From the NCBI GenBank assembly GCA_949130485.1, contig OX422183.1, positions 26,241,316 through 26,305,315 of the forward strand: a stretch of 64,000 nucleotides of DNA. The letters run 5' to 3'. The stretch's first letter is position 1. Every line of letters starts with the position of its first letter. Positions 1 through 64,000 of the stretch are shown one piece after another. The DNA is from Agelas oroides (lineage: Eukaryota; Porifera; Demospongiae; Agelasida; Agelasidae). A program made the position numbers and the translations under genes. The notes below the pieces were generated by a model. That model searched no databases. It was not told the origin of the DNA and saw nothing but the letters and a program-made list of their open reading frames with translations.

Positions 1-640
1 ATTCTTCCCTCTGTTCCTCTGTCCCTATCCATGTTCTCCTATCTCTGCCCCTGTCCTTGTCCTTGTACCTATTTGTCTGCCTCTTCCCTATCCTTCTTTC
101 CAAGTCCCTCTGTTCCTGTTCATCTGTTCCGGCCCCTCTGTCCCTGTCCATCTGTTCCTGTCACTCTGTCCCTGTTCCTATCTATCTGTTACAGTCGCCC
201 TATCATTGTACCCCTGTCACTCTGTTCCAGTCCCTGTGCCTTTGTTCCTGTTCCTTTCCGTCTGTCCGTATGCTGGCCTCTGTCCATGTCCCTCTGTTCC
301 TGTGACCCTAGACGTCCTTGTCCTTGTCACTATCCCTCTCTCCCTGTCCCTGTACCTGTGCCTTTGTCCCAAACTCTTTGTCCTTGTCCCTCTGTGCCTA
401 ACTCTTTCTCCTCTGTCCCTGTCTGTCCATCTTCCAGTTCCTCTACCTGTCCACCTCCCTCTCTCCCTGTCCCTGTCCCTCTGTCCGTATCTCAGTCCCT
501 GTCTTTCTCTCCCTGTCCCCGTCCCTGTCCCTCATTCCCTATTCATGTCCCTCTCTCCCTGTTCCTATGTCCCTTTCCCTGTCTCTCTCTCCCTGCCTCT
601 TTCGCTCTATCCCCCTGTCCCTGTGTTTGTCCTTCTGTCC
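1..640. repeat. Satellite array segment 1, pre-core module
   Basis: Degenerate TGTCCC / CCCTCTGT satellite. This 640-bp stretch is the module that precedes a core: closely similar sequence lies immediately upstream of the cores at 19811, 32006, 53203 and 60371, and a shortened version lies before 43217. Landmarks are the phrases around 34-60 (tatccatgttctc) and 268-310 (gctggcctctgtcc, gacgtccttg). Several forward frames are open, but they read the same Leu/Ser/Cys/Pro/Val peptide and are not genes. Confidence 0.9.
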
Positions 641-855
641 TTGACTCTACCCTCCCTTTTGTTGATATACCTGGTTCTACTAGGTTCATTATGACATCCC
701 CCAACTTTTGTAGTTGTACTGGATTACCCTTAACTCTACTTGGTTGTACTTGACTCTACCCAACTCTATGCTATAATGCTCTACCAGGTTTAGTTGAACT
801 CTCCTACAGTCTGCTACTTTGTACTACTAGAATCTATACAACACTCTGTATCCCA

Positions 856-1050
856 CTCTACCATAGCTTCTAATGGAATCTGCCTGACTCCACTACACTC
901 TACCATAGCTCTACCTGATTCTAAGGGACTCTGCTTCACTCCACCTCTCTCTGCCATGGCTCTATCTGATTCTACAGGAGAGTATTTGACTCCACCTCAC
1001 TTCACCATGGATTTCCTGGTTCCAATCAATGCCACCCTTACTCTACATCT
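856..1050 (+). repeat. 51-bp minisatellite inside core 1
   Basis: Units start at 898, 949 and 1000 (exactly 51 bp apart), with a shortened 42-bp unit at 856. Each reads roughly ctctaccatagctctacctg followed by a gattctaagggactctg-like half and a gactccacct end. The matching stretches are near 20025, 32214, 43432, 53418 and 60585. Because 51 and 42 are multiples of three, one frame stays open for about 90 codons with a 17-residue repeat ending LTPP. That frame has no ATG at its start, is frameshifted in core 3, and most differences between copies change the residue, so I call it a non-coding minisatellite. Confidence 0.8.
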
Positions 1051-1566
1051 TTCTAGTTCTACTTGACTGTTGTTATTTTGCAAAGATAGTGGTTTTGTTG
1101 CTTCTTACTTCCTTTTGTTCCTACTTATATGCACTTACTCCTCACTAAAGCATCCCTACATGTCTCAAGAAGTCATGCTAGTAGAACTAGGGCAGAATCT
1201 GCATCTAGTGAGGTTTTCTGTATTGAAGAAGTCCCACAATCAACTTTACACTGACAAGAATTCTGCACAATGTAACACGCTATTACAGCAGAAACCCTTC
1301 CCCCTGACTCGCCTCAGAACCAGCCAACTCCCCCTCCACTTATCCCCAGTAACAGTCTAACCTCTTTCCACAACACGTACACTAGCTCCCAGCATGAAGA
1401 GTCCTTATCTCGATTCCTTCAATTATTCAGCCCTACCCTAGCATACATGTAATCTGAAACAAATGGCCATCACCCTCCCCCCTTCTCCCTCTCCCTCAAA
1501 GTTCCCTAAGGATTAGGGGAAGACATAATTTGCACAGTTTTGTGAGTGTTACCTCAGCAAATGGGA

Positions 1567-1586
1567 GCTACGATGTGCGTCGTAGC
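1567..1586. other. Short perfect hairpin in core 1
   Basis: GCTACGA (1567-1573), 6-nt loop, TCGTAGC (1580-1586). It is intact in core 7 and mutated in cores 2 (one arm) and 6 (both arms). It is lost in cores 3 and 5, which carry overlapping deletions of about 490-500 bp. The lack of compensating changes argues against a selected RNA stem. Confidence 0.6.
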
Positions 1587-2160
1587 AGTGTTGGCGCTCC
1601 CCCACCCGACACCCCAACCACTGCTGTGTAGCTATCTCTTGGATACACTGACAACGCAGTCGGAATGGAGGTGATGTAGCTAGCTACACTACCTGCAAGG
1701 TTGAACTTCTTAGAAGCTAGTAGCTATAGATAGTCAAGAGTACAAAAATCATATAAGCTAGGCAGTAATCTTGATGACATTCTGCCAAATGCATGCAAGT
1801 GAACCAAAAAAATGAGCAAAAAGTTTCCCCACTAGGGTGAGGTCTTGGGGTATTGGGCTACCACGACACACGCAACACTACATGGCCAGAACAAGTCCCA
1901 GGTAACACCTGATGGCAGAACCAGAGCCCCTCTCCTCCTTGCAGCTGGCTAGGCTGACACCCCTGGTTCCACTCCGTGTCCAGAGTCTGTGGGATGTAAG
2001 GGAGGAACAGAGCGGCCCCTAGACCATATCGAGCAGCCAACTCGCATAGCTCTGAACCTTCTAACAGCTTTGGTTATGACTGTTAGTCCCCACAGTCTCC
2101 ATGTAGGACACTCCCCAACAGCTGCGGACAGTGTGGGTACTAGTAAAAGTGTTTTTCTCC

Positions 2161-2180
2161 TATTTATACTGCTATAAAAT
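2161..2180. promoter_or_regulatory. Back-to-back TATA-like boxes, candidate bidirectional promoter
   Basis: On the minus strand 2161-2168 reads TATAAATA followed by GG, a good match to the TATA consensus. Five bases away the plus strand reads TATAAAAT (2173-2180). The minus-facing box is invariant in the other cores that contain this block: 21322-21329, 33022-33029, 44233-44240, 54722-54729 and 61883-61890. The plus-facing box is TATATAA in core 2. A CpG-rich segment (2245-2320) lies upstream of the minus-facing box. A minus transcript would run through the core into the pre-core satellite and be rich in GGGACA. The promoter role is inferred from motifs only. Confidence 0.4.
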
Positions 2181-2219
2181 GCGTCCCTAATAATTATGGG
2201 TTTCGAAACAATGAATCTC

Positions 2220-2236
2220 ATTAACGTCTCGTTAAT
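2220..2236. promoter_or_regulatory. Perfect palindrome ATTAACG-TCT-CGTTAAT
   Basis: Seven-base arms with a 3-base centre, about 40 bp from the TATA-like pair. The palindrome is identical in cores 2, 5, 6 and 7, with a small change in the right arm of core 3. It could be a dimeric factor site or simply a conserved feature of a young repeat. Confidence 0.35.
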
Positions 2237-2244
2237 TACATTTC

Positions 2245-2317
2245 CGCTTGCGCGTGCGCGCGTTCGCTTGCACCTCATTAGCCCTCGCGGTCGCGGAACC
2301 AGACTCGGACTCCGCGA
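2245..2317. other. CpG-rich segment with Z-DNA-like tract and 7-bp hairpin
   Basis: A 14-bp alternating purine-pyrimidine tract (2249-2262, tgcgcgtgcgcgcg) lies between two direct CGCTTGC repeats (2245-2251 and 2265-2271). Next comes TCGCGGA (2291-2297) pairing with TCCGCGA (2311-2317) across a 13-base loop. The CpG density contrasts with the rest of the window. Core 7 has lost exactly one CGCTTGC-to-CGCTTGC interval (20 bp), as expected of slippage. The hairpin coincides with the MITE target in core 2 and with breakpoints in cores 4 and 5. Confidence 0.7.
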
Positions 2318-2769
2318 GCTAACCAGATCCAAACGCAGTTTTTGTCACTACTGGCAGGAGCCGTGTGAAGGTCTGCAGTCTAGATCAAAGGACAAATGTT
2401 AGCTTCAAGCTAGGGTATAGCTGGAAGTAACAGCTAGCCACACGATCATGGCTGAGAGTCAACGTATCAGAAACAGTGCTGCATTACGTCTCAGATGATG
2501 TGGTGTCTTCTGGTTTCCCATGGTGTCTCATCGTCTAGCAGGTACAGGGTGCACTTGCAGATTGCTCTGAGATGAACAGTCAGTAAGATATCAAGGTGAT
2601 TGTGTAACCAACATAGGCAGTGTTGTCCCATTGTGTCTCATGTCACATGGGATCTCATCATCTTACATGATGGTTCGTGTTGTCTGATGGTTTCAAGGTT
2701 TCATGTCGAAGCACCCTGATGACCAGTGTTTTTGAAGCATATCTACCAAAAAACAAGTCACTTTGACAT

Positions 2770-2889
2770 AACTGCCCAACCCATTTGAGCCATAAATGCC
2801 CCACCCATTTATGACGAATATGCCCCACCCATTTGTGACCTAAATGCCACACCCATTTATGACATAAATGCCACACCTATTCAAGCGAT
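2770..2889. repeat. 24-bp VNTR in core 1 (5 units)
   Basis: Five tandem units of exactly 24 bp, roughly AAATGCCCCACCCATTTATG plus ACGT. The same locus holds 3 units in core 2 (22408-22480), 6 in core 3 (33619-33759), 3 in core 4 (40855-40926), 4 in core 5 (44631-44726), 5 in core 6 (55336-55455) and 2 in core 7 (62475-62522). On the minus strand it translates as an 8-residue HKWVGHL-type repeat because 24 is a multiple of three, which is incidental. Confidence 0.9.
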
Positions 2890-3182
2890 GAATGTCTCAT
2901 TCCGGATTTGCCAACTGGTGCTGGTGCACCCCCACTTGACACACAACTGCCTATGTTGCTGTCCCACTATCCATTCCGTGTTCTGCTTCTGTGTCTTTCA
3001 CTTTAGTCCATCTGTCCCTGTCCCTAAGTCCCTGTTTCCTTCCATGTGTCCCTGTCGTGGAAATTTTCACCTAATGATCATCGATTTGCCAGCTGGTGTT
3101 GGTGCACCCCCACTTGACGCACAACTGCCTCTGTTGCTGTCCCACTATCCATTAAATGTTCTGCTTCTGTGTCTTTCACTTT

Positions 3183-6100
3183 GTCTGTCTGTCCCTGTCC
3201 CTATGTCCCTGTCAATGTCCCTGTCACTATCCCTGTTCCCCTGTCCCTGTTGCTGTCACTATCCCTGGTCCCTGTCCCTATTCCTCTGTCCCTTTCTCTG
3301 TTCTAATCCGTCTGTCCCTGTCCCTATGTCTGTCCTTCTCCCCTTGTCCCGGTACCTGTCCCTGTCCATCTTCCTCTGTCCCAGGTCTGTCTCTGATGTC
3401 GTACCGGTACCAGTCCTCGCTTCTTTGTCATCTTCCCTCTCCCCTCCACTGTGTCCTCCTGCTCCTGTTTTTATCCCTCCAAGGCCATTTCTGGCCCTCT
3501 GTTCCCGTTCCCCCATTCCTGTCCCTCTGTCCCTGTCTCTCTGTCCCTGTCCCTCTGTCCCTGTCACTCTGTCCGTGTCTCAGTCGCTATTCCAGTCCCT
3601 CTTTCCTTATTCTTGTCCGTCTGTTGTGCTTCTGTTCCTGTCCACGTCCCCCTTTCCATGTCCCTTTCTGTAGATGCCCGTTTCTGTCCTCCTTTCCCTG
3701 TTCCTGTCCCTGTCTGTCTGTCACAGTCCCTGTCCTTCGGTCCATGTCCATCTGCCCTTTCTCTGTTCCTGCACCTTTCGCTGTGATTCCTTCCTGTCCC
3801 TCTCTCATCCTGTCACTGTCCCTCTGTCCCTTTCCCTACCTCTGTCAATTGTCCCTCCGTCCCTGTGTCCTTGTTCGTCTGTCCTCGCCCCTATTTCTGT
3901 GTCGCTCTCCCTGTTCACCTTTCCCCCTGTCCCTGTCCTCTGTTCCGATCCCTGTCCCTCTGTCCTTGTCCCTCTGTCCTTGTCCCCTGTTACTCTCCCT
4001 GTCACTCTCCCTGTCCCTCTGTGCTGTCCGTCTGTCCTTCTCCCTCTGTCCTTGTCCCTCTGTCCTTGTTCCTCTGTCCTTGTCCCTCTGTCCTTGTCCC
4101 CTGTCACTCTCCCTGTCCCCCTGTCCCTTTCCCTGTGTTCCGGTCCCGTACCCTGTGTCCTTGTCCCTCTGTTCCGGTCCCGTTCCCTCTGTCGTTGTCC
4201 CCTGTCCCCCTGTCGCTGACCCTCTCTCCCTGTCCCTCTGTCCTTATTCATCTGTCACTCTGTCCCTGTTCCAGTCCTTGTCCGTCTGTATCTGTTCCTC
4301 TTTGTGTACCTCTCCTTGTCCCTCTGTCCCTGTACCTATCTCCCTTTCTCTGTCCCTGTCCTCATCTCAATCTCCCTCTTCATTATCCATATCCCTTTGT
4401 CCCTGTACATCTGGCCCTGTCACTATGTTCCTGTTCCTTTCTTTGTCCCGATCCATCTCCCTCTTCCATGTCCCCATCCCTCTGTCCTTGTCTCTCTGTC
4501 CTTGTCCCTCTGTCCCTGTCCCTCTGTCCCTGTCCCTCTATCCCTGTCCCTCTGTTCTTGTCCCTGTCCTTGTCCCTCTGTTTCTGTCTCATCTCTACTT
4601 GTCCCTATACCTCTTTCCTTATTCCAGTGCCTGCGTCCTTGTGCATCTGTCCTTCCCCTATTTCTGTGTCCCTCTCCCTGTCCTCCTGTCCCACTGTCCC
4701 TGTCCCTCTGTCCCTGTCCCTGTCCCTCTGTCCTTGTCACTCTGTCCCTGTCCCTCTGTCCTTTTTCCCTGTCACTCTCCCTGTACCCCTGTCCCTGTCC
4801 CTGTTTGTGTCCTTCTCCGTGTCCCTCTGTCCCTGTACCTGTCTACTTGTCTCTCTTCCTGCCCTTGTCTCTATCTCCCTCTTCCTTGTCCATATCCCTT
4901 TGTCCCTGTACATCTGGCACTGTCACTCTGTCCTTGTACCTATCTCCCTGTCTCTGTCCCTGTCCTCATCTCTATCTCCCTTTACCTTATCCGTATTCAT
5001 TTGTCCCTGTACATCTCGCCCTGTCACTCTGTGCCTGTTCCTGTCTTTGTCCCTATCCATCTCCCTCTTCCTTGTCTACATCCCTCTGTCCCTGTACCTC
5101 TCTACTTTTCCCTCTGTCCCTGTCCCTCTGTCCTTGTACCTCTGTCTCTGTCCCTCTGTCCTTGTCCCTCTGTCCCTGTCCCTCTGTCCCTGTCCCCTGC
5201 CTCTCTCCCTGTCCCCCTGTCCTTGTCCCTCGGTTGTGTCCCTCAGTCCCTGTCCCTCTGTCTCTGTCTCATCTCTCCTTGTCCCTATACCTCTTTCCTT
5301 ATTCCAGTCCCTGTGTCCCTGTCCCTATGTCCTTGTGCATCTGTCCTTCACCTACTTCTGTGTCCCTCTCCCTGTCCTACTGTCGCGCTGTCCCTGTCCC
5401 TTTGTCCCTGTCCCTCGGTCCCTGTCCCTGTCCTCTGTCCTTGTCTCTCTGTCCCTGTCCCTCTGTGGCACTCACCCTGTCCCCCTGTCCATGTCCATAT
5501 TTGTGTCCCTCTCCATGTCCCTCTGTCCCTGTACCTGTCTCCTTGTCTCTGTCCCTGTCCTTGTCTCTATCTCCCTCTTCCTTGTCCATATCCCTTTGTC
5601 CCCGTACATCAGGCACTGTCACTCTGTCCCTGATCCTGTTTGTGTCCATATCCATCTCCGTCTTCCTTGTCCCTTTCCCTCTGTCCTTGTCCATCTGGCC
5701 CTGTCTCTCTGTCCCTGTTCCTGTCCATCGCTCTCTGTCCCTCTCACTGTCACTCTATCCCTCTCTCTCTCCCTGTGTCCCTTTCAATTTGTACATCCCT
5801 CAGTCCCAGTTCTCCTGTCTATGTCCCAGTCCAAGTCCTTGTCCCTATGTATCTCTCTCTTCCCTGTCCTTCTATCCTGGTCCCCCTGTCCCCGTTCCCT
5901 TCTATCTGTCATAGTGCCTGTCCCTTTGCTGTCATTCATTTCCTATCCCTGTCCCAGTCCCTCTGTCCCCCAGTCTCTGTCCCCATGTGTGTCCTTGTCC
6001 CTGTCACTCTATCCCTGTTCCTGTTCCTATCCCTCTGCAGCTGTCCCTGTGCTTCAACTCCTGACCCTGTACCTGTCGTTATCACCATCGGTTCGTTCCT

Positions 6101-9100
6101 GTCTGTATCACCCTGTCCCCGTTCCTGTCCCTCTCCCGGTTGCCATCCGTCTGTCCCTCTGTTTCGCTTTCCCTCTGTTCCTGTCCCTATGTCTGACCTT
6201 ATCCCTCTCCCCCGGTCTGACTATTCCTGTTGGTCCCTGTCCTTGTTCCACTCTTTGTCCCTGCCCTTGTTCCTGTTCCCATCCATGTCTGTGTCACTTT
6301 GTCTATGTCACTCTGTCCCTCTTCCTGTGCCTCTGTTTCTGTTGCTATATGTCCCTGTCCTGGTCCCTCTGTCTCTATCCATCTGTTCCCGTCACTCAGT
6401 CCCTGGTGCCTGTTCCTGTCTATCTGTCACAGTCCCTATCCATCTGTCATTGTCTCTGTCATTGTCTCTGTCCCTGTGTGTTTCGCTGTCCTTATTGGTA
6501 TCCCCAGCTCGCTGTCCCTCTGTCCCTGTTCATCTCCCTCTTCCTTGTTCATACCCCTTTCTCCCTATCCATCTCCCTCTTTCTTGTACCTATCCCTCTG
6601 TCCCAGTCCCTCTGTCCCTGTTCCTGTCGTTGTCCGTCTGTCCTTGTCTCTGTCCCTATTTGTGTCCCTCTCCCTGTTCCTCTGTCCCTGCACCTATCTC
6701 CCTGTCTCTGTCCCTCTACTCATCTCTATCTCCCTTTTCCTTATCCATGTCCTTTTCTTCCTGTACATCTCGCCCTGTCACTCGGTCTCTGTTCCTGTCT
6801 TTGTCCCTATCCATCTCCCTCTTCCTTGTTCATATCCGTTTGTCCCTGTACATCTGGCCCTGTCACTCTGTTCCTGTTCTTGTCCATCTGTCTCTGTCCC
6901 TGTCACTGTCCCTCAATCCCTCTCTCTGTCCCTGTGTCCCTTTCAATTTGTCCGTCCCTCTGTCCCTGTTCTCCTGTCTATGTCCCAGTCCCAGTCCTTG
7001 TGCCTATATATCTCCCTCTTTCCTGTCCTTCTATCCTTGTCCATCTGTCCCCATTCCTTTCTATCTGACATAGTCACTGTCCCTTTGCTGTCATTCATTT
7101 CCTATCCCTCCTGTCATTGTCCCTGTCCCTGTCACTCTATCTCTCTTCCTGTTCCTGTCCCTCTGCAGCTGTCCCTGTCCTTCAACCCCTGTCCCTGTTC
7201 CTGTCGTTATCACTACCGCTCTGTCCCTGTCTGTGTCACCCTGTCCCCGTTCCTGTCCCTCTCCCGGTTCCCATCCGTCTGTCCCTCTGTTTCTCTTTCC
7301 CTCTGTTGCTGTCCCTATGTCTGGGCTTGTCCCTTTCCCCCGGTCTGACTATACCTGTCGCTCCCTGTCCTTGTTGCTCTCTTTGTCCCTGCCCTTGTTC
7401 CTGTTCCTGTCCCTGTCTGTGTCACTTTGTCTGTGTCACTCTGTCCGTATCCCTGTCCCTCTGTCCCTGTTTGTGTCACCCTGTTCATGTTCCTGTCCTA
7501 TGTCACTGTTCCTCTGTCCCTGTCCCTATGTCTGTCCTTGTTTCTCTGTCCCTGTCTGACTATTCCTGTCGCTGTCCCTGTTGTTTCTCTGTTCGTGTCT
7601 GACTATTCCTGTCACTGTCCCTCTGTCCCTGTCATGTCCTGTCCCTGTCCAGTCCCTGTCCATCTGTCCCTCTGTCCCTCTCTCCCTGTCCTGTCCATGT
7701 TCCTGTCCGTGTTCCAGTGCCTTTCTTCCTGTTCCTATGTCCCATTGCCTGTTTGTGTGTCCATGTCCCAGTCCATTTCCCTCCACCCCTGTCCTCTCCT
7801 GGTCCCTCTGTCCCTGTCTATCTGTTCATGTCACTCAGTCCGGTGTCCCTGTTCCTGGGAGCTGTCTATCTGTCACAGTCCCTATCCCTCTGTCCCTGTC
7901 GATTTGACCTTGTCTTTGTCCCTGTCCCGATTGCTGTGATTTACTTCCTGTCCCTATCGCTGTCCCAAACTACCTTTTTCTCTCTCCGTCTGTCCCTATC
8001 CCTCTGTCCCTGTCCCTTTTCCTGTCCCTATCCTTGTCCGTCTGTCCTGTCTGTGTCATCCTGTCCCTGTTCCTGTCCCTCTTTCCTTATTCTTCTCCGT
8101 CTGTTGTCCTTCTGTTCCTGTCCAATTCCCCCTTTCCATGTCCATTTCCGTAGATCCCCGTTTCTGTCCTCCTTTCCCTGTTCCTGTCCCTGTCTGTCTG
8201 TCACAGTCCCTGTCCTTCGGTCCATGTTCATCTGCCCTTTCTCTGTTCCTGTACCTTTCACTGTCATACCTTCCTGTCCCTCTCTCAGCCTGTCACTGTC
8301 CCTCTGTCCCTTTCCCTACGTTTGTCAATTGTCCCTCCGTCCCTGTGTCCTTGTCCGTCTGTCCTTCCCCTATTTCTGTGTCCCTCTCCCTGTCCTCCTG
8401 TCCCTGTCCCTCTGTCCCTGTCCCTCTGTCCCAGTCCCTCTGTCCCTGTCCATCTGTCCTTGTCCCCTGTCACTCTCCCTGCCCCCCTGTCCCTATTTGT
8501 GTCCCTCTCCATGTCATACCTGTCTCCTTGTCTCTGTCCCTGTCCTTCTCTCTATCTCCCTCTTCCTTGTCCATATCCCTTTGTCCCTGTACATCTGTCA
8601 CTGTCACTCTGTCCCTGTTCCTGTCTTTGTCCATATCCATCTCCGTCTTCCTTGTCCCAATCCCTCTGTCCCTGTACATCTGGCCCTGTCACTCTGTTCC
8701 GCTTCCTGTCTTTGTCCTATCCATCTGTTCATATCCCTTTGTCCTTGTACATCTGGCCCTGTCACTCTGTCCCTGTTCCTGTCTTTGTCCCTACCCATCT
8801 CCCTCTTCCTTGTCCCCATCCCTCTGTCCCTGTACATCTGTCCCTGTCACTCTGTCCCTCTTCCTGTCTTTGTCCCTATCCATCCCCTTCTTCCTTGTTC
8901 ATAGCCCTTTGTCCCTGTGCATCTGGCGCTGTCACTCTGTCCCAGTCCCTGTTCCTCTTTGTGTCCTTCTCCTTGTCCCTCTGTCCCTGTACCTATTTGT
9001 GTCCCTCTCCTTGTCCCTCTGTCCCTGTACCTATCTCCCTTTCTCTGTCTCTGTCCTCATCTCTATCTCCCTCTTCATTATCCATATCCCTTTGTCCCTG

Positions 9101-9323: not shown

Positions 9324-12113
9324 TTACATGACATTCCTGTTTCTGCAACACCAAATGCTATAGGAGCCTTGGATGGTCCGTTTGCAAAGTTCAAACATCA
9401 ATTTTGTCATCTCACTAGTGGTGATGTTCAAGGTGGTCTTTAGGTGCTGGAAGCCAGCAGAGTTTATTACTCCTCTGGAGCCAACTTCCAGGGTGATGAG
9501 TTCAGTTTCATAACCTGCATTACAGGCTCCAGTGACCAGTTCTTCGTACTTTTCCTCCTTTCTCTCAGCTGCTACTTCAAAGTTTGTCTCATAGCTGATC
9601 GTCAGTTCAGCAAGCATGAGTGACTTCTGCTGGTCGTCCCACCAAACAATGTCCGGGCGAAGATCTGTAGGAACAATGTGCATGGGAAATTCATATCCAT
9701 CACCGAGGTCGGCAGTTAGTCGGGTGGTTGGGGAAAGCTTGGGTTGGATGACTTTTACAATCTCTTGGAGAACTGCATCGTGGCGCTGATTGTACCGCCT
9801 AAGGTTTCTAGCCACTTTGCAGTTGTTGAGTACATGTAAGAGGCTCTGTCTCTCACCACACAGTGGGCAGGCAGCGTTGTCCTTCTTCTTCCACAGCTGC
9901 AGGTTGGCATTATGTGGAAGGGTGTCATGTGCAGCATTTAGGGCGAACTTCATGGTGTTGGATGGTAGAGCCTGGACCGCCTTTGCCCACACGGTTGCTG
10001 TGTCGGAGGTGGTGGTACGGAGCATCTCTCCTTGTTTCTGGAGGTCTTGCACCTGCAGTAGCCTATCAGCGTCTTCCTGACTTTTGACCTTCCTTTTTGC
10101 AGCTGCAGCTAAGGCTTTCCTGCTACGACTGGGATCTTCAGCCAGTGCATCTCGAACCACCACTGCAGGCTTGAAAATCTTTCTGGTCAGCTGGTCTTCC
10201 TTCTGTAGGTGCTTCTCTGCTAGATGGCGTACACATGGATCAATTGAAGTCAGGAGCTGGCACTGTCTAGAGACCTGCAGCTGTTTGTGGAATACAGAAA
10301 GGGAGGGTAGGTTCAAGCCACCCATCTTCTGGGGGAGGTAGAGCAGTGATGTGTTGGCTGACTTTGCAAGACCAGCCCACTTCTTCACAAACCGCGTGGC
10401 TGTTGCCTCTAGCTGCCTCTCAACCCATGTGAACGGGAGCTCTTCAATATTCAGCAGCCAGCTAAGACGTGGGCATATCCCAACCTTGTACAACCGTAGC
10501 TTTTGTCTGCGTGTTACTGGGGCAGCATCCACAGCTTTGAGCATGCGCTGGAGGTTGGTTACCAACTCCCTCTTTGTGCCTGACAAGTCAGCTGGAACCT
10601 GGATGGTCATGCCAAGGAACTTGATTGAGTTACTTCCAATGAAGGGGATGGTTTGGTTTGTGATTGATAGGTGGGGATCATAGAGCTTGCCTGTGGAACC
10701 TTGCAACACTAGGCAGTGGCATTTCGGAACCTTGGCCCTCATCCCTGACCATTGGAGCCACCTGTCAACCATGTCCAGGAGATGCTGACCAGCAGCTGGG
10801 CTGTTGGCCGTGATGCAGGTGTCGTCTGCATATTGCAGGAGGTTGACCTGGTGGCGAGAGTTGGGGAAAAGGAAACCAAGATCTGGTCTGGTCTGCAAGG
10901 TGTCAACCATAGTGTTGATAACTGTGTTGAAGATCACAACTGAGAGCGGGTCACCCTGGTAGACACCAAGCTCCAATGGGATGGTAGCAGTAGACCAGTC
11001 ATTAGTCACAACTGTTCCATAGAGGTCAGAGTACAGAGACTGGATGATACTGCAGAACTGAGGTGGTGCATGGTAGTGGCAGATTGAGAACTGGATAAGA
11101 GAATGATGAACGCTGCCATAGGCATTAGCCAGATCCAGCCAACACACTGCCAGAGATTTGTGGTTCTTCCTGGCTTCAGCTAGGATGGCAGCTAGCTTGC
11201 ATTGGTGTTCGATGCAACCAGGAGTGGCCTTCATGAAGGCTTTCTGGATGGAGCTGCTGAGATAGCCATTGCGGGTCATGTAGTTGAGCCATCGGGTCTT
11301 TAATATGGTGGTGAATAGCTTGCCTACACAGGAGGTAAGCGCAATGGGGCGGAAATTGGCTGGGGTTGTGGGATCTTCTACAGCTGAGCCCTTCCCAACC
11401 AGTTTGATTGCCGCAAGCTTCCACTCTGGTGGGATCACAGCTTGGGACCAACAACAGTTGAACAGGTTGAGGAGGGCCTTGCCAAGCGAGCGGCACTGTT
11501 TGAAGACAGTGTAGGGAACCTGGTCGAAAGGGGAGGGGCTGGATGTGGATTTGGTGTGCTTGATGGCAGCCAGCAGCTCACCAGCGTTAATCTCATCACA
11601 GGGTAGTTCTTCTGTTGGGGCCTGGGGGGTTGGCATCCAATCTGGCTGGCTGAAGATGTGGGGGGTGGAGCTGTAGACATCCTTGAAGTAGTCAAAGGCC
11701 ACATCTTCTCCAAACTGAGGTGAGGTTTGATTGGTGGCATTATCATCAAGGAGCTCCTTGGCATATTGCCAGAAATGTTGGTGGCAGCACTGCCTTGCCT
11801 TCCTGGCCTGATTACTCAGGCTAGTATTGCGGGAGGCTCTCTTCAGCTGGTTGTACTCCCTCACAAGCTTGAAAAAGTTTCGTGCAAGGGACTGGATGGT
11901 TTCAGGTTGTAAGCCTTCCCGTTTTGCTCTCTGAAACTCCTTTTTGGCATCACCTTTCAGTTGCTTCACTCTCTTCAGTGCTCTGTCATGTTTCTGTCTC
12001 CTCTTTGTGTTCCTGTCTGTTTTGGGCTGCTTTGTGCCATACCTTTCAGAGAAGTATGCGTAGATGCCATCACACAGAATTCTGTTCTTGGTCTGTACAG
12101 ATGGTTCACTCAC
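9141..12113 (-). mobile_element. 5'-truncated non-LTR retrotransposon with restriction-like endonuclease
   Basis: A 2,973-bp block of non-satellite DNA with satellite on both sides. Read on the minus strand it contains one long ORF (reverse transcriptase, CCHC knuckle, PD-(D/E)XK endonuclease), then about 180 bp of 3' UTR ending in a short TTTG-type tandem tail (plus-strand CAAA units at 9140-9151). No LTRs, terminal inverted repeats or poly(A) are visible. The reading frame runs without a stop past the 5' boundary into satellite, so the true 5' end, where R2-type elements usually carry zinc fingers or Myb domains, is missing. 5' truncation is typical of target-primed reverse transcription. 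The flanks come from different satellite positions, so no target-site duplication can be defined. Confidence 0.88.
9324..12113 (-). CDS. Reverse transcriptase / endonuclease of R2-like LINE (5' partial)
   Basis: 929 codons ending at TAA. The first codon of the listed frame is GTG, not ATG, and the frame stays open upstream into satellite, so the protein is N-terminally incomplete. A basic region (1-110) leads to a pre-RT FW..Y motif (114-117). The reverse transcriptase follows: NFRPIALTS at 253-261, motif A LDLANAYGSV with catalytic D327, motif B QGDPLS 386-391, motif C YADDT 428-432 with D430/D431, and FLGMTI 499-504. A CX2CX7HX4C knuckle uses C749, C752, H760 and C765. The C-terminal PD-(D/E)XK-type nuclease shows RPD (819-821), E836 in AELT, and the RKEEKY segment (851-856). 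Domain order matches the R2/R4/NeSL/HERO group, which nick DNA and copy RNA at the target. RT and nuclease catalytic residues are present with no internal stop or frameshift, which suggests a young copy. The exact clade is not resolved. Confidence 0.9.
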   Translation of the reverse strand: MSEPSVQTKNRILCDGIYAYFSERYGTKQPKTDRNTKRRQKHDRALKRVKQLKGDAKKEFQRAKREGLQPETIQSLARNFFKLVREYNQLKRASRNTSLSNQARKARQCCHQHFWQYAKELLDDNATNQTSPQFGEDVAFDYFKDVYSSTPHIFSQPDWMPTPQAPTEELPCDEINAGELLAAIKHTKSTSSPSPFDQVPYTVFKQCRSLGKALLNLFNCCWSQAVIPPEWKLAAIKLVGKGSAVEDPTTPANFRPIALTSCVGKLFTTILKTRWLNYMTRNGYLSSSIQKAFMKATPGCIEHQCKLAAILAEARKNHKSLAVCWLDLANAYGSVHHSLIQFSICHYHAPPQFCSIIQSLYSDLYGTVVTNDWSTATIPLELGVYQGDPLSVVIFNTVINTMVDTLQTRPDLGFLFPNSRHQVNLLQYADDTCITANSPAAGQHLLDMVDRWLQWSGMRAKVPKCHCLVLQGSTGKLYDPHLSITNQTIPFIGSNSIKFLGMTIQVPADLSGTKRELVTNLQRMLKAVDAAPVTRRQKLRLYKVGICPRLSWLLNIEELPFTWVERQLEATATRFVKKWAGLAKSANTSLLYLPQKMGGLNLPSLSVFHKQLQVSRQCQLLTSIDPCVRHLAEKHLQKEDQLTRKIFKPAVVVRDALAEDPSRSRKALAAAAKRKVKSQEDADRLLQVQDLQKQGEMLRTTTSDTATVWAKAVQALPSNTMKFALNAAHDTLPHNANLQLWKKKDNAACPLCGERQSLLHVLNNCKVARNLRRYNQRHDAVLQEIVKVIQPKLSPTTRLTADLGDGYEFPMHIVPTDLRPDIVWWDDQQKSLMLAELTISYETNFEVAAERKEEKYEELVTGACNAGYETELITLEVGSRGVINSAGFQHLKTTLNITTSEMTKLMFELCKRTIQGSYSIWCCRNRNVM

Positions 12114-13499
12114 ATCCCTCTGTCCCTGTATATCTCTCCCTGTCCCTCTGTCCCTGTCCCTCTTTCCTTGTCCCTCTGTCCTTGTTCCTTTCTCTCTGTC
12201 TCATCTCTCCTTGTCCCTATACCTCTTTCCTTATTCCAGTCCCTGTGTCCTTGTGCATCTGTCCTTCCCCTATTCCTGCGTCCCTCTCCCTTTCCTCCTG
12301 TCTCGCTGTCTCTGTCCCTCTGTCCCTGTCCCTGTTCCTCTGTCCTAATCACTATGTCCCTGTCCCTTTGTCCTTGTTCCCTGTCACTCTTCCTGTACCC
12401 CTGTCCCTGTCCCTGTTTGCGTGTCCCTCTCCATGTCCCTCTGTCCCTGTACCTGTCTCCATGTCTCTCTCCCTGACCTTGACCCTATGTCCCTCTTCCT
12501 TGTCCATATCCCTCTGTCCCCATACATCTGCCCTGTCACTCTGTCCCTCTTCCTGTCTTTGTCCTATCCATCTGTTCATATCCCATTGTCCTTGTATATC
12601 TGGCCCTGTCACTCTGTCCCTGTTCCTGTCTTTGTCCTTATCCATCTCCCTCCTCCATGTCCCCATCCCTCTGTCCCTGTCCCTCTGTCCTTGGCCCTCT
12701 GTCACTCTGTCGCTGTTCCCTGTCACTCTGTCCCTGTTCCTGTCCTTGTCCGTCTGTCCTTGTCCCTGTCCCTATTTGTGTCCCTCTCCCTGTCCCTCTG
12801 TCCATGTACCTGACTTCCTCTCTGTGTCCCTGTCATCGTCTCTATCTCCCTCTTCCTTGTTCATATCCCTATGTCCTTGTACATCTCGCCCTGTCACTCT
12901 GTCCTTGTTTCTTCGTTCCTATTCATCTCCCTCTACCATTTCCATATCCCTTTGTTCCTGTACATCTCGCCCAGTCACTCTCTCCCTGTTCCTGTCTTTG
13001 TCCCTATCCATCTCCCTCTTCCTTGTCCCTATCCCTCTGTCCGTCTACATCTGACCCTGTCACTCTGCTCCTGTTCCTGCCTTTGTTCCCTTCCATCTCC
13101 CTCTTCCTTGTTCATATCCGTTTGTCCCTGTACATCTGGCCCTGTCACTCTGTTCCTGTTCCTGTCCATCTGTCTCTGTCTTTGTCACTGTCCCTCTATC
13201 TCTCTCTCTGTCCCTGTGTCCCTTTCAATTTTTCCGTCCCTCTGTCCCTGTTCTCCTGTCTATGTCCCAGTCCCAGTCCTTGTGCCCATGTATCTCCCTC
13301 TTCCCTGTCCTTCTATCCTTGTCCGTCTGTCCCCGTTCCTTTCTATCTGTCATAGTCCCTGTCCCTTTGCTGTCATTCATTTCCTATCCCTCCTGTCATT
13401 GTCCCTGTCCCTGTCATTCTATCCCTCTTCCTGTTCCTGTCCCTCTGCAGCTGTCCCTGTCCTTCAACCCCTGTCCCTGTTCCTGTCGTTATCACTACC

Positions 13500-43216: not shown

Positions 43217-44841
43217 TTGACTCTACCCTCTCTTTCGTTGATATACCTGGTTCTACTAGGTTCATTATGACAGCCCCCAACTTTTGTAGTTGTACTGGAT
43301 TACCCTTAAGTCTACTTGGTTGTACTTGACTCTACCCAACTCTATGCTATAATGCTCTACCAGGTTTAGTTGAACTCTCCAACAGTCTGCTATGTTGTAC
43401 TACTAGAATCTATACAACACTCTGTATCCCACTCTACCGTAGCTTCTAATGGAATCTGCCTGACTCCACTCCACTCTACCGTAGCTCTACCTGATTCTAA
43501 GGGACTCTGCTTGACTCCACCTCTCTCTGCCATGGCTCTACCTGATTCTACAGGAGAATATTTGACTCCACCTCACTTCACCATGGATTTCCTGGTTCCA
43601 ATCAATGCCACCCTTACTCTACATCTTTCTGGTTCTACTTGACTGTTGTTATTTTGCAAAGTTGGTGGTTTTGTTGCTTCTTACTTCCTTTTTTCCTACT
43701 TACATGCACTTACTCCTTACTAAAGCATCCCTGCATGTCTCAAGAAGTCCTGCTACTAGAACTAGGGGAGCATCTGCATCTAGTGAGGTTTTCTGTATTG
43801 AAGAAGTCCCAGAATCAACTTTCCAAAAATCATATAAGCTAGGCAGTAATTTTGATGACATTGTGCCAAGTGAACAAAAAAAAATGAGCAAAAAGTTTTC
43901 CCACTAGGGTGAGGTCTTGGGGTATTGGGCTACCACGACACACGCAACACTACATGGCCAGAACAAGTCCCAGGTAACACCTGATGGCAGAGCCAGAGTC
44001 CCTCTCCTCCTTGCAGCTGGCTAGGCAGACACCCCTGGTTCCACTCCGTGTCCAGAGTCTGTGGGATGTAAGGGAGGAACAGAGCGGCCCCTAGACCATA
44101 TCAAGCAGCCAACTCGCATAGGTCTGAACTTTCTAACAGCTTTGGTTATGACTGTTAGTCCCCACAGTCTCCATGTAGGACACTCCCCAACAGCTGCGCA
44201 CAGTGTGGGTACTAGTAAAAGTGTTTTTCTCCTATTTATACTGCTATAAAATGCGTCCCTAACAATTATGGGTTTCGAAACAATGAATATCATTAACGTC
44301 TCGTTAATTACATTTCCGCCTGCGCGTCCGCGCGTTCGCTAGCACCTCATTAGCCCTCGCGGTCGCGGAACCAGACTCTGGATCCGCGACATCATCTATC
44401 AGGTACAGGGTGCACTTGCAGATTGCTCTGAAATGAACCGTCAGTAAGATATCAAGGTGATTGTGTAACCAACATAGGCAGGGTTGTCCCATTGTGTCTC
44501 ATGATGTCACATGGGATCTCATGTTACATGATGGTTCGTGTTGTCTGATGGTTTCAAGGTTTCATGTCGAAGCACCCTGATGACCAGTGTTTTTGAAGCA
44601 TATCTACCAAAAAACAAGTCGCTTCACCATAACTGCCCAACCCATTTGAGCCATAAATGCCCAACCCATTTATGACGAAAATGCCCTACCCATTTATGAC
44701 GTAAATGCCACATCTATTCAAGCGATGAATGTCTCATTCCCGATTTGCCAACTGGTGCTCGTGCACAACCACTTGACACACAACTGCCTCTGTTGCTGTC
44801 CTACTATCCATTCCATGTTCTGCTTCTGTGTCTTTCACTTT
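43217..44841. repeat. Core unit, copy 5 (two internal deletions)
   Basis: Deletion 1, about 500 bp, joins caacttt to aaaaatcatataagc near 43824 (core 1 positions about 1245-1743). Deletion 2, about 210 bp, joins the right arm of the CpG hairpin (44383-44389) to atcatctatcagg. Minus-facing TATA-like box 44233-44240 is retained. The VNTR has four units; the 70-bp AT-rich segment is absent; the tail module is single. Confidence 0.88.
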
Positions 44842-47340: not shown

Positions 47341-47518
47341 CTTGTCCCCTGTCACTCTCCCTGTCCCCCTGTCCTTGTCCCTCGGTTGTGTCCCTCACTC
47401 CCTGTCCCTCTGTCTCTGTCTCTTCTCTCCTTGTCCCCTGTCACTCTCCCTGTCCCCCTGTCCTTGTCCCTCGGTTGTGTCCCTCACTCCCTGTCCCTCT
47501 GTCTCTGTCTCTTCTCTC
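47341..47518. repeat. 89-bp tandem duplication in array 7
   Basis: Two adjacent units of 89 bp (starting 47341 and 47430) that appear identical by eye, containing the marker tcggttgtgtccctcactcc. This is local slippage or unequal exchange at the sub-repeat scale. Confidence 0.85.
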
Positions 47519-51624: not shown

Positions 51625-51774
51625 GAGTTCCTTAAGCTTGTTCCTCTGTCCCTATTAACTGTACCCCTTGTTCATAGTGCCATGGGTGCATGTGTTAAAT
51701 TTGGCATGTCCAAAGTTGTTTGGTGTATAATTTATATGTATATAGGCTGCCTTAACTGTTCTGAGGGTTATTGT
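51625..51774. repeat. AT-rich island, copy 3
   Basis: Third copy of the island at 18249 and 31076, about 1.4 kb before core 6, the same offset as copy 1. Confidence 0.75.
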
Positions 51775-53202: not shown

Positions 53203-55749
53203 TTGACTCTACCCTCTCTTTCGTTGATATACCTAGTTCTACTAGGTTCATTATGACATCCCCCAACTTTTGTAGTTGTACTGGATTACCCTTAACTCTA
53301 CTTGGTTGTACTTGACTCTACCAAGCTCTATACTATAATGCTCTACCAGGTTTAGTTGAACTCTCCTACAGTCTGCTACGTTGTACTACTAGAATCTATA
53401 CAACACTCTGTATCCCACTCTACCGTAGCTTCTAATGGAATCTGCCTTACCCCACTACACTCTACCGTAGCTCTACCTGATTCTAAGGGACTCTGCTTGA
53501 CTCCACCTCTCTCTGCCATGGCTCTACCTGATTATACAGGAGAGTATTTGACTCCAACTCACTTCACCATGGATTTCCTGGTTCCAATCAATGCCACCCT
53601 TACTCTACATCTTTCTAGTTCTACTTGACTGTTGTTATTTTGCAAAGATAGTGGTTTTGTTGCTTCTTACTTCCTTTTTTCCTACTTATATGCACTTACT
53701 CCTTACTAAAGCATCCCTACATGTCTCAAGAAGTCATGCTAGTAGAACTAGGGCAGAATCTACATCTAGTGAGGTTTTCTGTATTGAAGAAGTCCCACAA
53801 TCAACTTTACACTGACATGAATTCTGCACAATGTAACACGCTATTACAGCAGAAACCCTTCCCCCTGACTCCCCTCAGAACCAGCCAACTTCCCCTCCAC
53901 TTATCCCCAGTAACAGTCTAACCTCTTTCCACAACACGTACACTAGCTCCCAGCATGAAGAGTCCTTATCTGGATTCCTTCAATTATTCAGCCCTACCCT
54001 AGCATACATGTAATCTGGAACAAATGGCCATCACCCTCCTACCCTCTCCCTCTCCCTCAAAGATCCCTACGGATTAGGGGAAGACATAATTTGCACAGTT
54101 TTGTGAGTGTTACCTCAGTAAATGGGAGCTACGATATGCATCCTAGCAGTGTTGGCGCTCCCCCACCCGACACCCCAACCACTGCTGTGTAGCTATCTCT
54201 TGGATACACTGACAACGCAGTGGGAATGGAGGCAATGTAGCTAGCTACACTACCTGCAAGGTTGAACTTCTTAGAAGCTAGTAGCTATAGATAGTCAAGA
54301 GTACAAAAATCATATAAGCTAGGCAGTAATCTTGATGACATTCTGCCAAATGCATGCAAGTGAACCAAAAAAATGAGCAAAGAGTTTCCCCACTATGATG
54401 AGGTCTTGGGGTATTGGGCTACCACGACACACGCAACACTACATGGCCAGAACAAGTCCCAGGTAACACCTGATGGCAGAGCCAGAGCCACTCTCCTCCT
54501 TGCAGCTGGCTAGGCTGACACCCCTGGTTCCACTCCGTGTCCAGAGTCTGTGGGATGTAAGGGAGGAACAGAGCGGCCCCTAGACCATATCGAGCAGCCA
54601 ACTCGCATAGCTCTGAACCTTCTAACAGCTTTGGTTATGACTGTTAGTCCCCACAGTCTCCATGTAGGACACTCCCCAACAGCTGCGCACAGTGTGGGTA
54701 CTAGTAAAAGTGTTTTTCTCCTATTTATACTGCTATAAAATGCGTCCCTAATAATTATGGGTTTCGAAACAATGAATATCATTAACGTCTCGTTAATTAC
54801 ATTTCCGCTTGCGTGTGCACGCGTTCGCTTGCACCTCATTAGCCCTCGCGGTCGCGGAACCAGACTCGGACTCCGCGAGCTAACCAGATCCAAACGCAGT
54901 TTTTGTCACTACTGGCAGGAGCCGTGTGAAGGTCTGCAGTCTAGATCAAAGGACAAATGTTACCTTCAGGCTAGGGTATAGCTGGAAGTAACAGCTAGCC
55001 ACACGATCATGGCTGCGAGTCAACGTATCAGAGACAGTGCTGCATTGCGTCTCAGATGATGTGGTGTCTTCTCGTTTCCCATGCCATGGTGTCTCATCGT
55101 CTAGCAGGTACAGGGTGCACTTGCAGATTGCTCTGAAATGAACAGTCAGTAAGATATCAAGGTGATTGTGTAACCAACATAGGCAGTGTTGTCCCATTGT
55201 GTCTCATGATGTCACATGGGATCTCATGTTACATGATGGTTCGTGTTGTCTGATGGTGTCAAGGTTTCATGTCGAAGCACCCTGATGACCAGTGTTTTTG
55301 AAGCATATCTAGCAAAAAACAAGTCACTTTGCCATAAATGCCCAATCCATTTGAGCCATAAATGCCCCACCCATTTATGACGAATATGCCCCACCCATTT
55401 GTGACCTAAATGCCACACCCATTTATGACATAAATGCCGCACCTATTCAAGCGATGAATGTCTCATTCCTGATTTGCCAACTGGTGCTGGTGCACCCCCA
55501 CATGACACAACTGCCTCTGTTACTGTCCCACTATCCATTCCGTGTTCTTCTATTTCTGTGTCTTTCACTTTTGTCCATCTGTCCCTGTCCCTATGTCCCT
55601 GTCTCCTTCCATGTGTCCCGGTCCTGGAAATTTTCACCTAATGAAGATCGATTTGCCAGCTGGTGTTGGTGCACCCCCACTTGACGCACAACTGCCTCTG
55701 TTGCTGTCCCACTATCCATTCCATGTTCTGCTTCTGTGTCTTTCACTTT
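53203..55749. repeat. Core unit, copy 6 (full length)
   Basis: Closest in structure to core 1: 2.55 kb, VNTR with the same five-unit pattern, and no 70-bp AT-rich segment. Minus-facing TATA-like box 54722-54729; CpG hairpin 54852-54858 with 54872-54878. The hairpin corresponding to 1567-1586 is degraded (gagctacgatatgcatcc). A 5-bp duplication (catgccatgg) lies near 55080. Confidence 0.9.
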
Positions 55750-60370: not shown

Positions 60371-62882
60371 TTGACTCTACCCTCTCTTTCGTTGATATAC
60401 CTGGTTCTACTAGGTTCATTATGACATCCCCCAACTTTTGTAGTTGTACTGGATTACCCTTAACTCTACTTTGTTGTACTTGACTCACCCAACTCTATGC
60501 TATAATGCTCTGCCAGGTTTAGTTGAACTCTCCTACAGTCTGCTACGTTGTACTACTAGAATCTATACAACACTCTGTATCCCACTCTTCCGCAGCTTCT
60601 AATGGAATCTGCCTGACTCCACTACACTCTACCATAGCTCTACCTGATTCTAAGGGACTGTGCTTGACTCCACCTGTCTCTGCCATGGCTCTATCTGATT
60701 CTACAGTAAAGTATTTGACTCCACCTCACTTCACCATGGATTTCCTGGTTCCAATCAATGCCACCCTTACTCTACATCTTTGTGGTTCTACTTGACTGTT
60801 GTCATTTTTCAAAGATAGTGGTTTTGTTGCTTCTTCCTTTTTTCCTACTTATATGCACTTACTCCTTACTAAAGCATCCCTGCATGTCTCAAGAAGTCAT
60901 GCTAGTACAACTAGGGCAGAATCTACATCTAGTGAGGTTTTCTGTATTGAAGAAGTCCCACAAGCAACTTTACACTGACATGAATTCTGCTCAATGTAAC
61001 ACGCTATTACAGCAGAAACCCTTCCCCCTGACTCACCTCAGAACCAGCCAACTCCCCCTCCACTTATCCCCAGTAACAGTCTAACCTCTTTCCACAACAC
61101 GTACACTAGCTCCCAGCATGAAGAGTCCTTATCTGGATTCCTTCAATTATTCAGCCCTACCCTAGCATACATGTAATCTGGAACAAATGGCCATCACCCT
61201 CCCACCCTCTCCCTCTCCCTCAAAGATCCCTATGGATTAGGGGGAGACATAATTTGCAGTTTTGTGAGTGTTACCTCAGCAAATGGGAGCTACGATGTGC
61301 GTCGTAGCAGTGTTGGCGCTCTCCCACCCGACACCCCAACCACTGCTGTGTAGCTATCTCTTGGATACACTGACAACGCAGTGGGAATGGAGGCGATGTA
61401 GCTAGCTACACTACCTGCAATGTTGAAATTCTTAGAAGCTAGTAGCTATAGATAGTGAGGTGTACAAAAATCATATAAGCTAGGCAGTAATGTTGATGAC
61501 ATTCTGCCAAATGCATGCAAGTGAACTAAAAAAATGAGCAAAAAGTTTCCCCACTAGGGTGAGGTCTTGGGGTATTGGGCTACCACGACACAAGCAACAC
61601 TACATGGCCAGAACAAGTCCCAGGTAACACCTGATGGCAGAGCCAGAGCCCCTCTCCTCCTTGCAGCTGGCTAGGCTGACACCCCTGGTTCCACTCAGTG
61701 TCCAGAGTCTGTGGGATGTAAGGGAGGAACAGAGCGGCCCCTAGACCATATCGAGCAGCCAACTCGCATAGCTCTGAACCTTCTAACAGCTTTGGTTATG
61801 ACTGTTAGTCCCCACAGTCTCCATGTAGGACACTCCCCAACAGCTGCGCACAGTGTGGGTACTAGTAAAAGTGTTTTTCTCCTATTTATACTGCTATAAA
61901 ATGCGTCCCTAATAATTATGGGTTTCGAAACAATGAATATCATTAACGTCTCGTTAATTACATTTCCGCTTGCACCTCATTAGCCCTCGCGGTCGCGGAA
62001 CCAGACTCGGACTCCGCGAGCTAACCAGATCCAAACGCAGTTTTTGTCACTACTGGCAGGAGCCGTGTGAAGGTCTGCAGTCTAGATCAAAGGACAAATG
62101 TTAGCTTCAGGCTAGGGTATAGCTGGAAGTAACAGCTAGCCACACGATCATGGCTGCGAGTCAACGTATCAGAGACAGTGCTGCATTGCGTCTCAGATGA
62201 TGTGGTGTCTTCTGGTTTCCCATGGTGTCTCATCGTCTAGCAGGTACAGGGTGCACTTGCAGATTGCTCTGAGATGAACAGTCAGTAAGATATCAAGGTG
62301 ATTGTGTAACCAACATAGGCAGTGTTGTCCCATTGTGTCTCATGATGTCACATGGGATCTCATGTTACATGATAGTTCGTCTTGTCTGATGGTTTCAAGG
62401 TTTCATGTCGAAGCACCCTGATGACCAGTGTTTTTGAAGCATATCTACCGAAAAAAAAAATGTGACTTTGCCATAACTGCCCAACCCATTTATGACATAA
62501 ATGCCACACTTATTCAAGCGATGAATGTCTCATTCCCATATTACATTGCATTTTGTAACTTCTGACTTTATGCATCTTGAAATTTTCACCTAATGAACAT
62601 CGATTTGCCAACTGGTGCTGGTGCCCCCCCACTTGACACACAACCGCCTCTGTTGCTGTCCCACTATCCATTCCGTGTTTTTCTGTTTCTGTGTCTTTCA
62701 CTTTTGTCCATCTGTCCCTGTCCCTATGTCCCTGTTTGCTTCCATGTGTCCCTGTCCTGGAAATTTTCACCTAATGAACATCGATTTGCCAGCTGGTGTT
62801 GGTACACCCCCACTTGACGCACAACTGCCTCTGTTGCTGTCCCACTATCCATTCTATGTTCTGCTTCTGTGTCTTTCACTTT
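60371..62882. repeat. Core unit, copy 7 (full length, small deletions)
   Basis: 2.51 kb. It has lost exactly 20 bp between the two CGCTTGC repeats of the CpG-rich segment (near 61970), removing the Z-DNA-like tract. Minus-facing TATA-like box 61883-61890; CpG hairpin 61993-61999 with 62013-62019; 1567-type hairpin intact. The VNTR is down to two units; the 70-bp AT-rich segment is present (about 62533-62600); tail module twice. A run of A (about 62453-62460) replaces the usual ccaaaaaacaagtc. Confidence 0.9.
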
Positions 62883-64000
62883 GTCCATCTGTGCCTGTCC
62901 CTACGTCCCTGTCAATGTCCCTGTCACTATCCCTGTTCCCCTGTCCCTGTTGCTGTCACTATCGCTGGCCCCTGTCCCTATTCCTCTGTCCCTTTCCCTG
63001 TTCTAATCCGTCTGTCCCTGTCCCTATGTCTGTCCTTCTCCCCTTGCCCCGGTACCTGTCCCTGCCCATCTTCCTCTGTCACAGGTCTGTCTCTGATCTC
63101 GTACCAGTATCATTCTTTGCTTCTTTGTCATCTTCCCTCTCCCCTCCACTGTGTCCTTCTGCTCCTGTTTTTATCCCTCCAGGACCATTTCTGGCCCTCT
63201 CTTCCCGTTCCCCCATTCCTGTCCCTCTGTCCCTGTCTCTCTGTCGCTGTCACTCTGTCCGTGTCTCAGTCACCATTCCATTCCTTCTTTCCTTATTCTT
63301 GTCCGTCTGGTGTGTTTCTGTTGCTGTCCAAGCCCCCATTTCCATGTCCCTTTCCGTAGATCCCCGTTTCTGTCCTCCTTTCCCTGTTCCTGTCCCTGTC
63401 TGTCTGTCACAGTCCCTGTCCTTCGGTCCATGTCCATCTGCCCTTTCTCTGTTCCTGTACCTTTCGCTGTGATTACTTCCTGTCCCTCTCTCAGCCTGTC
63501 ACTGTCCCTCTGTCCCTTTCCTTACGTCTGTCAATTGTCCCTCCGTCCCTGTGTCCTTGTACGTCTGTCCTCGCGCCTATTTCTGTGTCCCTCTCCCTGT
63601 TCACCTGTCCCCCTGTCCCTGTCCTCTGTTCCGATCCCTGTCCCTCTGTCCTTGTTCCCTGTCACTCTCCCTGTCACTCTCCCTGTCACTCTCCCTGTCC
63701 CTCTGTGCTGTCCCTCTGTCCTTGTACCTCTGTCCTTGTCCCTCTGTCCTTGTCCCTCTGTCTTTGTCCCCTATCACTCTCCCTGTCCCCCTGTCCCTGT
63801 CCCTCTGTTCCGGTCCCGTTCCCTCTGTCCTTGTCCCCTGTCCCCCTGTCGCTGACCCTCTGTCCCTGTCCCTCTGTGCTATCCCTCTGTCCTTCTCCGT
63901 CTGTCCTTGTTCCCTGTCACTCTCCCTGTCCCACTGTCCCTGTCCCTCTGACGTGTCCCTCAGTCCCTCTCCCCTGGCACTCTCCCTGTCTCCCTGTCCC
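62883..64000. repeat. Satellite array segment 9 (runs off the window)
   Basis: Post-core module closely matching those after cores 1-6, then 14-mer satellite continuing past the window edge. Around 63655-63700 a short run of ctccctgtcact units shows local slippage. No gene seen. Confidence 0.9.

Follow-up and report, generated by a model that had tools for sequence, protein, structure and literature searches.

A macrosatellite of the sponge Agelas oroides probably multiplies a conserved non-coding transcription unit with a U6-type promoter

Is the satellite DNA that fills a 64-kb stretch of the genome of the sponge Agelas oroides mere repeat, or does it carry a gene? The stretch, called the window below, comprises 64,000 nucleotides (C1:26241316-26305315) of C1, a 32.7-Mb contig in an assembly of 259,295,671 bases and 141 contigs. 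An earlier note, made from these letters, had read it as a macrosatellite of hierarchical build, with a higher-order repeat phased by the core, belonging to no satellite family that it could name. The macrosatellite is real and extends over about 600 kb, in which 48 copies of one block are known; what that reading overlooked is the block itself, a conserved non-coding stretch of the core laid out as a U6-type transcription unit, which the array probably multiplies.

We aligned 30 array core copies to the window core, leaving out copies that cover fewer than 600 bases, and compared substitution along the core. Between positions 1818 and 2203, which run from a proximal sequence element (PSE) to a run of T, the copies hold 75 mismatches in 11,074 letters (0.68%), against 2.2% and 2.4% in the core on either side. 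Six of the 30 copies (L002-L007) are best matches to the window, and without them the rates are 0.69% in the block versus 2.1% and 2.6% beside it. Measured over positions 1841-2200, substitution across the 30 copies is 0.6%, versus 2.3% elsewhere in the core; the least variable 360-bp core window starts at 1838, and sites with more than 5% variants number 13 of 360 in the block versus 225 of 1,780 in the remaining core. Six of the seven window cores carry this block. In none of its six frames is there a clear excess of synonymous changes, and many of its indels are not multiples of three; a protein-coding gene was rejected.

Comparison with the genome's own small nuclear RNA (snRNA) genes reveals a promoter on the block's minus strand. 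We located the U6 and U2 genes with Rfam models and read the regions upstream of them. In the full U6 gene (C18:1529636), the PSE AAACCCATA is followed after 26 bp by the TATA word TATAAATA and after a further 22 bp by the start, which TTACTAGT precedes. The block presents AAACCCATA, TATAAATA and TTACTAGT at these same distances, so that in the first window copy the PSE lies at 2195..2203, the TATA box at 2161..2168 and the predicted start at 2138, all on the minus strand. When a 65-base U6 promoter template was laid ungapped along the window, the six block copies occupied the top six minus-strand places with 46-47 of 65 positions identical, and the next-best places reached 33/65 on the minus strand and 34/65 on the plus strand. 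The block itself is identical to the U6 promoter at 47 of 65 positions, against a best of 32 among 2,000 shuffles, and its promoter is exact in 24 of the 28 array copies that span it. The block thus has a PSE and a TATA box at the U6 distance, as expected of a type-3 gene of RNA polymerase III (Pol III).

The distance between PSE and TATA box separates two classes of promoter in this genome. A genome-wide search for AAACCCATA with TATAAA 21-27 bp beyond it gives 144 matches against 5 for a reversed control, and the spacing counts rest on the 100 of these 144 places that were listed. Forty-four of the 100 lie in the array, all with a gap of 26 bp; the other 56 have gaps of 23 bp (n = 26), 22 bp (n = 6), 21 bp (n = 3) or 26 bp (n = 21), with none at 24, 25 or 27 bp, and three of the 21 non-array places with a 26-bp gap are copies of the block dispersed outside the array. 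All nine U2 genes read carry ACCCATA 22 bp from TATA. Among 20 of the listed places that we fetched (14 with gap 26, six with gaps of 21-23), AATTTTTGG, which we take to be the Sm site word, follows the promoter in five of the six with short gaps and in none of the 14 with gap 26; none of the 20 was named by Rfam at gathering scores. Membership of the Sm-class snRNAs made by RNA polymerase II (Pol II) was rejected for the block, whose gap is 26 bp rather than 21-23 bp and whose consensus RNA holds neither AATTTTTGG nor ATTTTTG. Given the U6-like words at their U6 distances and the two spacing classes, the block is most likely a Pol III type-3 gene, and we consider it very likely, judging from sequence, that the window belongs to an array of such genes for a predicted RNA of about 320 nt to which Rfam 15 has no match.

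The ends of this RNA can be predicted from the block. Downstream of the predicted start (2138), the earliest stretch of at least four T is a T5 at 1818-1822, near the end of conservation, and would serve as the terminator of copy 1 (1818..2138, minus strand; predicted transcript ~316-321 nt), a putative gene delimited by the low-substitution block, the promoter layout and this T-run. In each of the 23 array copies that match the start-site word, the first run of at least four T falls at +285 to +326; copies with a change in that word are missed. The consensus folds with z-scores of -2.6 on the minus strand and -1.9 on the plus strand relative to column shuffles, which do not keep dinucleotides, and in the structure drawn from an array copy 96.6% of cells pair versus 39-48% when it is slid, yet no pair changes on both sides. 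A transcript of the plus strand was also considered, with words resembling A and B boxes, a T5 at 2152-2156 and, at ~1901-1944, a GT..AG like that of an intron, picked out by eye; with the U6-type promoter on the minus strand it was dropped, because a unit ending at 2152-2156 leaves the conservation of 2157-2203 unexplained. A second short conserved stretch lies at 1619-1649, about 170 bp beyond the predicted RNA 3' end, and is also kept in the dispersed copies L032 and L036.

Which RNA would such a gene make? Rfam models searched against the block up to E 10 return nothing credible (one match at E 8.7 in one search, a best of E 2.4 in another), with all matches far under their cut-offs; the window likewise yields nothing credible and no 5S, and a tRNA scan of it finds none. 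RNase MRP RNA is rejected, as the block has no RF00030 match and an RF00030 match (128.6 bits) sits at C15:8522385. Telomerase RNA is rejected as well: assuming a telomere repeat of TTAGGG, we looked for the template words CTAACCC, TAACCC and CCCTAA and found none in the consensus RNA. One rival accepts the same gene and takes its RNA for a Pol III RNA of known kind that has diverged beyond the reach of Rfam, 7SK foremost, which fits a predicted length of ~320 nt and a type-3 promoter and whose sequences are poorly conserved (PMC8406779). It must contend with Rfam results that contain no such RNA up to E 10 (no genome-wide search for 7SK or RNase P was made), with a consensus RNA that lacks GAUC, the HEXIM-contact word of the 7SK 5' hairpin, and, for RNase MRP, with the separate gene on C15. 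We rejected 7SK itself on the missing motif and the negative Rfam search, and hold a divergent known RNA to be unlikely.

Copies of the block outside the array provide a second view of its conservation. The block occurs, whole or in part, at 17 such places, on C1 (eight, at 6.6, 25.2-25.5 and 26.5 Mb), C2, C3, C6, C15, C17 (four) and C18, and parts of the core are also present outside the array. We read 16 of the 17, leaving out C17:3132 kb, and compared block and flank by Fisher test in the ten of these 16 where each provides 40 letters or more, the other six having fewer than 40 flank letters. The RNA part is 96-99% identical versus 80-94% in the flanks, and the block is the better kept in all ten testable copies, with p < 0.001 in seven and 0.047, 0.055 and 0.41 in the remaining three; two pairs of rows (L046/L047 and L035/L043) are near-duplicates. 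Mismatches number 2/289 in the block versus 60/606 in the flank of L032, and 7/316 versus 34/239 in L034; L037 and L038 are more diverged, with 20/259 and 30/269 block mismatches. The dispersed copy at C1:26.532 Mb (L042) holds a fold-back insertion, CCTAGCCTCGTTCCCAG..CGAGGCTA, that resembles a small mobile element.

Several observations weigh against reading the block as a Pol III gene. On the side of the RNA, the full-length fold is no more stable than shuffles (z -0.5); a 120-nt stretch reaches z -3.5, but as the best of 15 windows per strand, and the surrounding 150-nt window has -1.5. No base pair is changed on both sides in structure alignment A2, which consists of 21 chosen rows, with those of L032 and L033 too short on one side. 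That the RNA lacks T-runs in its interior counts for little as evidence, and the terminal T-run is less constant than the RNA (2 mismatches in 143 letters, and two gaps). On the side of the promoter, several dispersed copies are truncated or lack PSE or TATA, and L034 is conserved despite an altered PSE. One complete U6 gene was read together with its promoter, and a U6-like match on C5 and the RNase MRP gene are without the exact PSE-TATA layout. Among the 14 fetched places with gap 26, one U6 start (L065) and two Y-like RNAs were recognised and 11 are unnamed, and a TATA-start gap of 22-23 bp is also common to U2 genes. Finally, the U2 genes of this genome have a TATA box, unlike human Pol II snRNA promoters, which lack one (PMC6004067), so that the polymerase is judged here only from PSE-TATA spacing and U6 likeness.

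The faint RNA structure signal would suit a block that acts as DNA, a conserved promoter, insulator or replication site that borrows a PSE-TATA promoter and whose 316 bp downstream work as DNA; that some promoterless dispersed copies keep part of the block would suit it too. Conservation nevertheless begins at the PSE, takes in the predicted start and ceases at about the first T-run, which is the extent of a transcription unit, and we give a DNA element the same small chance as a divergent known RNA.

The layout of the array bears on the remaining alternatives to a Pol III gene array. Examined up to C1 26.355 Mb, with its middle known from pattern matches and 4-kb loci only, the array spans C1:25.747-26.348 Mb (~600 kb) and has kilobase units in one orientation over hundreds of kilobases, as a macrosatellite should. 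Its left edge is sharp and falls within a truncated core at C1:25,746.7 kb, and the satellite words tested are on the plus strand throughout the left 150 kb, with one exception among 2-kb bins. The right end (L031, C1:26.348-26.354 Mb) is inverted relative to the rest, the orientation turning near 26,348 kb. A 32-bp word of the block has 63 matches genome-wide, of which 48 lie in the array, 48/48 on the plus strand. The 44 exact promoter copies in the array, which are those among the 100 listed places, define 43 steps of 7.0-44 kb with a median of 12.4 kb.

Homogenisation is evident, for instance in a step of exactly 12,426 bp that occurs twice in succession, and biased gene conversion in an ordinary, functionless satellite array might by itself render the block uniform; this explanation requires conversion tracts with the same ends on several contigs, matching promoter and terminator, and we regard it as very improbable. 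Least probable of all is a centromeric or pericentromeric satellite, although a large one-orientation array with higher-order structure would fit it. Of the contigs, C1 alone has the searched block words in array form, the others having them at single places, and the 14-bp word, among the matches listed, is elsewhere in small clusters, a distribution that speaks against a genome-wide centromere satellite and leaves room for a centromere on C1 only.

We return to the Pol III gene array and propose how it might work. Each unit would consist of a minus-strand non-coding RNA gene and several kilobases of CCCTGT-type pyrimidine satellite spacer. The gene, with an external snRNA-type promoter in which 26 bp separate PSE from TATA and 22 bp separate TATA from start, and with a run of T as its terminator, would be read by Pol III, which SNAPc and TFIIIB would bring to each unit, and the ~44 intact promoters would supply one RNA pool. 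Unequal exchange and conversion may raise the number of units and make them alike, and purifying selection may keep promoter and RNA constant, leaving the fast-evolving spacer free to slip, duplicate and change length. The predicted RNA is most likely the RNA part of a ribonucleoprotein required in high dose. On balance, we favour the fuller proposal that the array serves to supply, in high dose, an undescribed, lineage-specific Pol III RNA of ~320 nt, neither 7SK, MRP, P nor signal recognition particle RNA, in which an early-branching animal would combine an RNU2-like organisation with a U6-type promoter and in which the pyrimidine satellite would be no free satellite but the expansion-prone spacer of a gene array. 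Among the matches listed in the open-licence literature searched, such an array is unreported.

Five further predicted gene copies lie on the minus strand of the window: copy 2 at 20979..21299 (PSE 21356-21364, TATA 21322-21329), copy 3 at 32679..32999 (PSE variant AAACCTATA 33056-33064, TATA 33022-33029), copy 4 at 43890..44210 (PSE 44267-44275, TATA 44233-44240), copy 5 at 54379..54699 (PSE 54756-54764, TATA 54722-54729) and copy 6 at 61540..61860 (PSE 61917-61925, TATA 61883-61890). In copy 5 the first T-run is interrupted and the next lies about 10 nt further. The seven core copies that the earlier note had counted are present, starting at 601, 19780, 31975, 40369 (a fragment without the gene), 43171, 53172 and 60340. 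The core is not fixed throughout: three of the seven (601, 53172 and 60340) are unbroken over the core query and the others have deletions or insertions. Spacing between the fuller cores does shrink along the window, as the earlier note had claimed (19.2, 12.2, 11.2, 10.0 and 7.2 kb), a local pattern that does not extend to the whole array, where spacing has no trend (Spearman 0.15, p 0.32).

An unbroken copy of the core module of the higher-order repeat (601..3000, plus strand) is followed by pyrimidine-rich CCCTGTCCCTCTGT satellite spacer on the plus strand at 3001..9060, within approximate limits; other long spacer stretches lie at about 12115-19780, 22840-31970, 34115-40360, 41107-43170, 44838-53170 and 55746-60340. 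The finer repeat structure proposed for the satellite was also borne out. The 14-bp word, said to recur throughout, has 459 matches with at most one mismatch in the 64-kb window, whereas 100 shuffles average 3.64 and never exceed 11, and all of the 200 of these 459 matches that were listed are on the plus strand. Sub-repeats of 73, 85 and 158 bp are present near 8.6-8.9 kb, a 2,112-bp duplication links 13692 to 15804, and an 834-bp step recurs from 26043 to 26877, 26156 to 26990 and 26257 to 27091. Strand asymmetry and GC bias are likewise real, with a GC skew of about -0.3 to -0.55 across most satellite stretches and a GC content of 0.46-0.56 inside the array versus 0.39-0.45 in its left flank. 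Genome-wide, the pyrimidine word has 1,220 + 183 matches, array included, versus 83 + 37 for a control, and among the matches listed it forms small clusters on C4, C11, C16, C22 and others. Inside the satellite lies an open frame of 958 codons from stop to stop (9324..12200, minus strand) for a reverse transcriptase (Pfam RVT_1, E 9.6e-27), in which a zf-RVT match falls below its cut-off.

Other loci carry the same promoter words. At C3:4.1-5.4 Mb there are at least 15 PSE-TATA promoters with gaps of 21-23 bp, of which L077 was read, and single places with such gaps lie elsewhere (L073, L074, L076 and L078); in all five of these loci AATTTTTGG stands 52-82 nt after the TATA word. They may represent a family of Sm-class RNAs that is not yet listed, perhaps akin to SmY or spliced-leader RNAs, and L077 has a weak SmY match (E 0.17). 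With a 26-bp gap, the promoters of L066 and L067 (C3:3.61 and 3.82 Mb) precede short hairpin RNAs of 79 and 77 nt with a T-run, which carry GGTCCGG..TTTGACC, have no Rfam match and, by this motif, presumably resemble Y RNAs. A further unnamed gap-26 family (L061, L062 and L063, C2:3.24-3.98 Mb) has GTTGAYATTGC in common, and L061 and L062 also share CCACAAAAATGTGG.

An apparently meaningless satellite thus becomes a probable array of small-RNA genes, and a library of non-poly-A RNA from this animal is predicted to contain a specific RNA. Gaps of 21-23 versus 26 bp offer a working rule for separating U2-like from U6-like snRNA-type genes in this genome, one that already points to other unlisted RNA families, and concerted evolution could be studied in a new setting if a large tandem array is kept up around a Pol III gene of type 3.

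Among known systems, arrays of 5S ribosomal DNA likewise keep a tandem Pol III gene constant amid variable spacer; they differ in the internal promoter and ~120-nt RNA of the 5S gene, and Rfam finds no 5S in the window. Human type-3 Pol III genes end at a T-run, and to our knowledge animal genes of this type are single or dispersed and not in arrays of hundreds of kilobases, in contrast to the ~600-kb array here. The block resembles human type-3 genes such as U6 in its external PSE and TATA at a fixed distance (PMC6004067), and the U2 genes of this genome have a TATA box, which human Pol II snRNA promoters lack (PMC6004067). In Drosophila, PMC4227766 gives 8 bp to PSEB for Pol II snRNA genes versus 12 bp to TATA for U6, a 4-bp difference between classes like that of 22 versus 26 bp here; PSEA sequence, not spacing, decides the polymerase there, whereas here a difference of spacing alone is observed. 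The human RNU2 macrosatellite (PMC4132748) is a tandem array of U2 snRNA genes with 5-82 copies of a 6.1-kb unit; per the title of reference 36 there, a (CT)n.(GA)n tract embedded in this unit diversifies despite concerted evolution. The two arrays are alike in joining a tandem snRNA-type gene to a pyrimidine tract; U2 is a Pol II, Sm-class gene, whereas the predicted sponge gene has U6 spacing and an RNA without an Rfam family, and its spacer is made of kilobases of pyrimidine 14-bp words.

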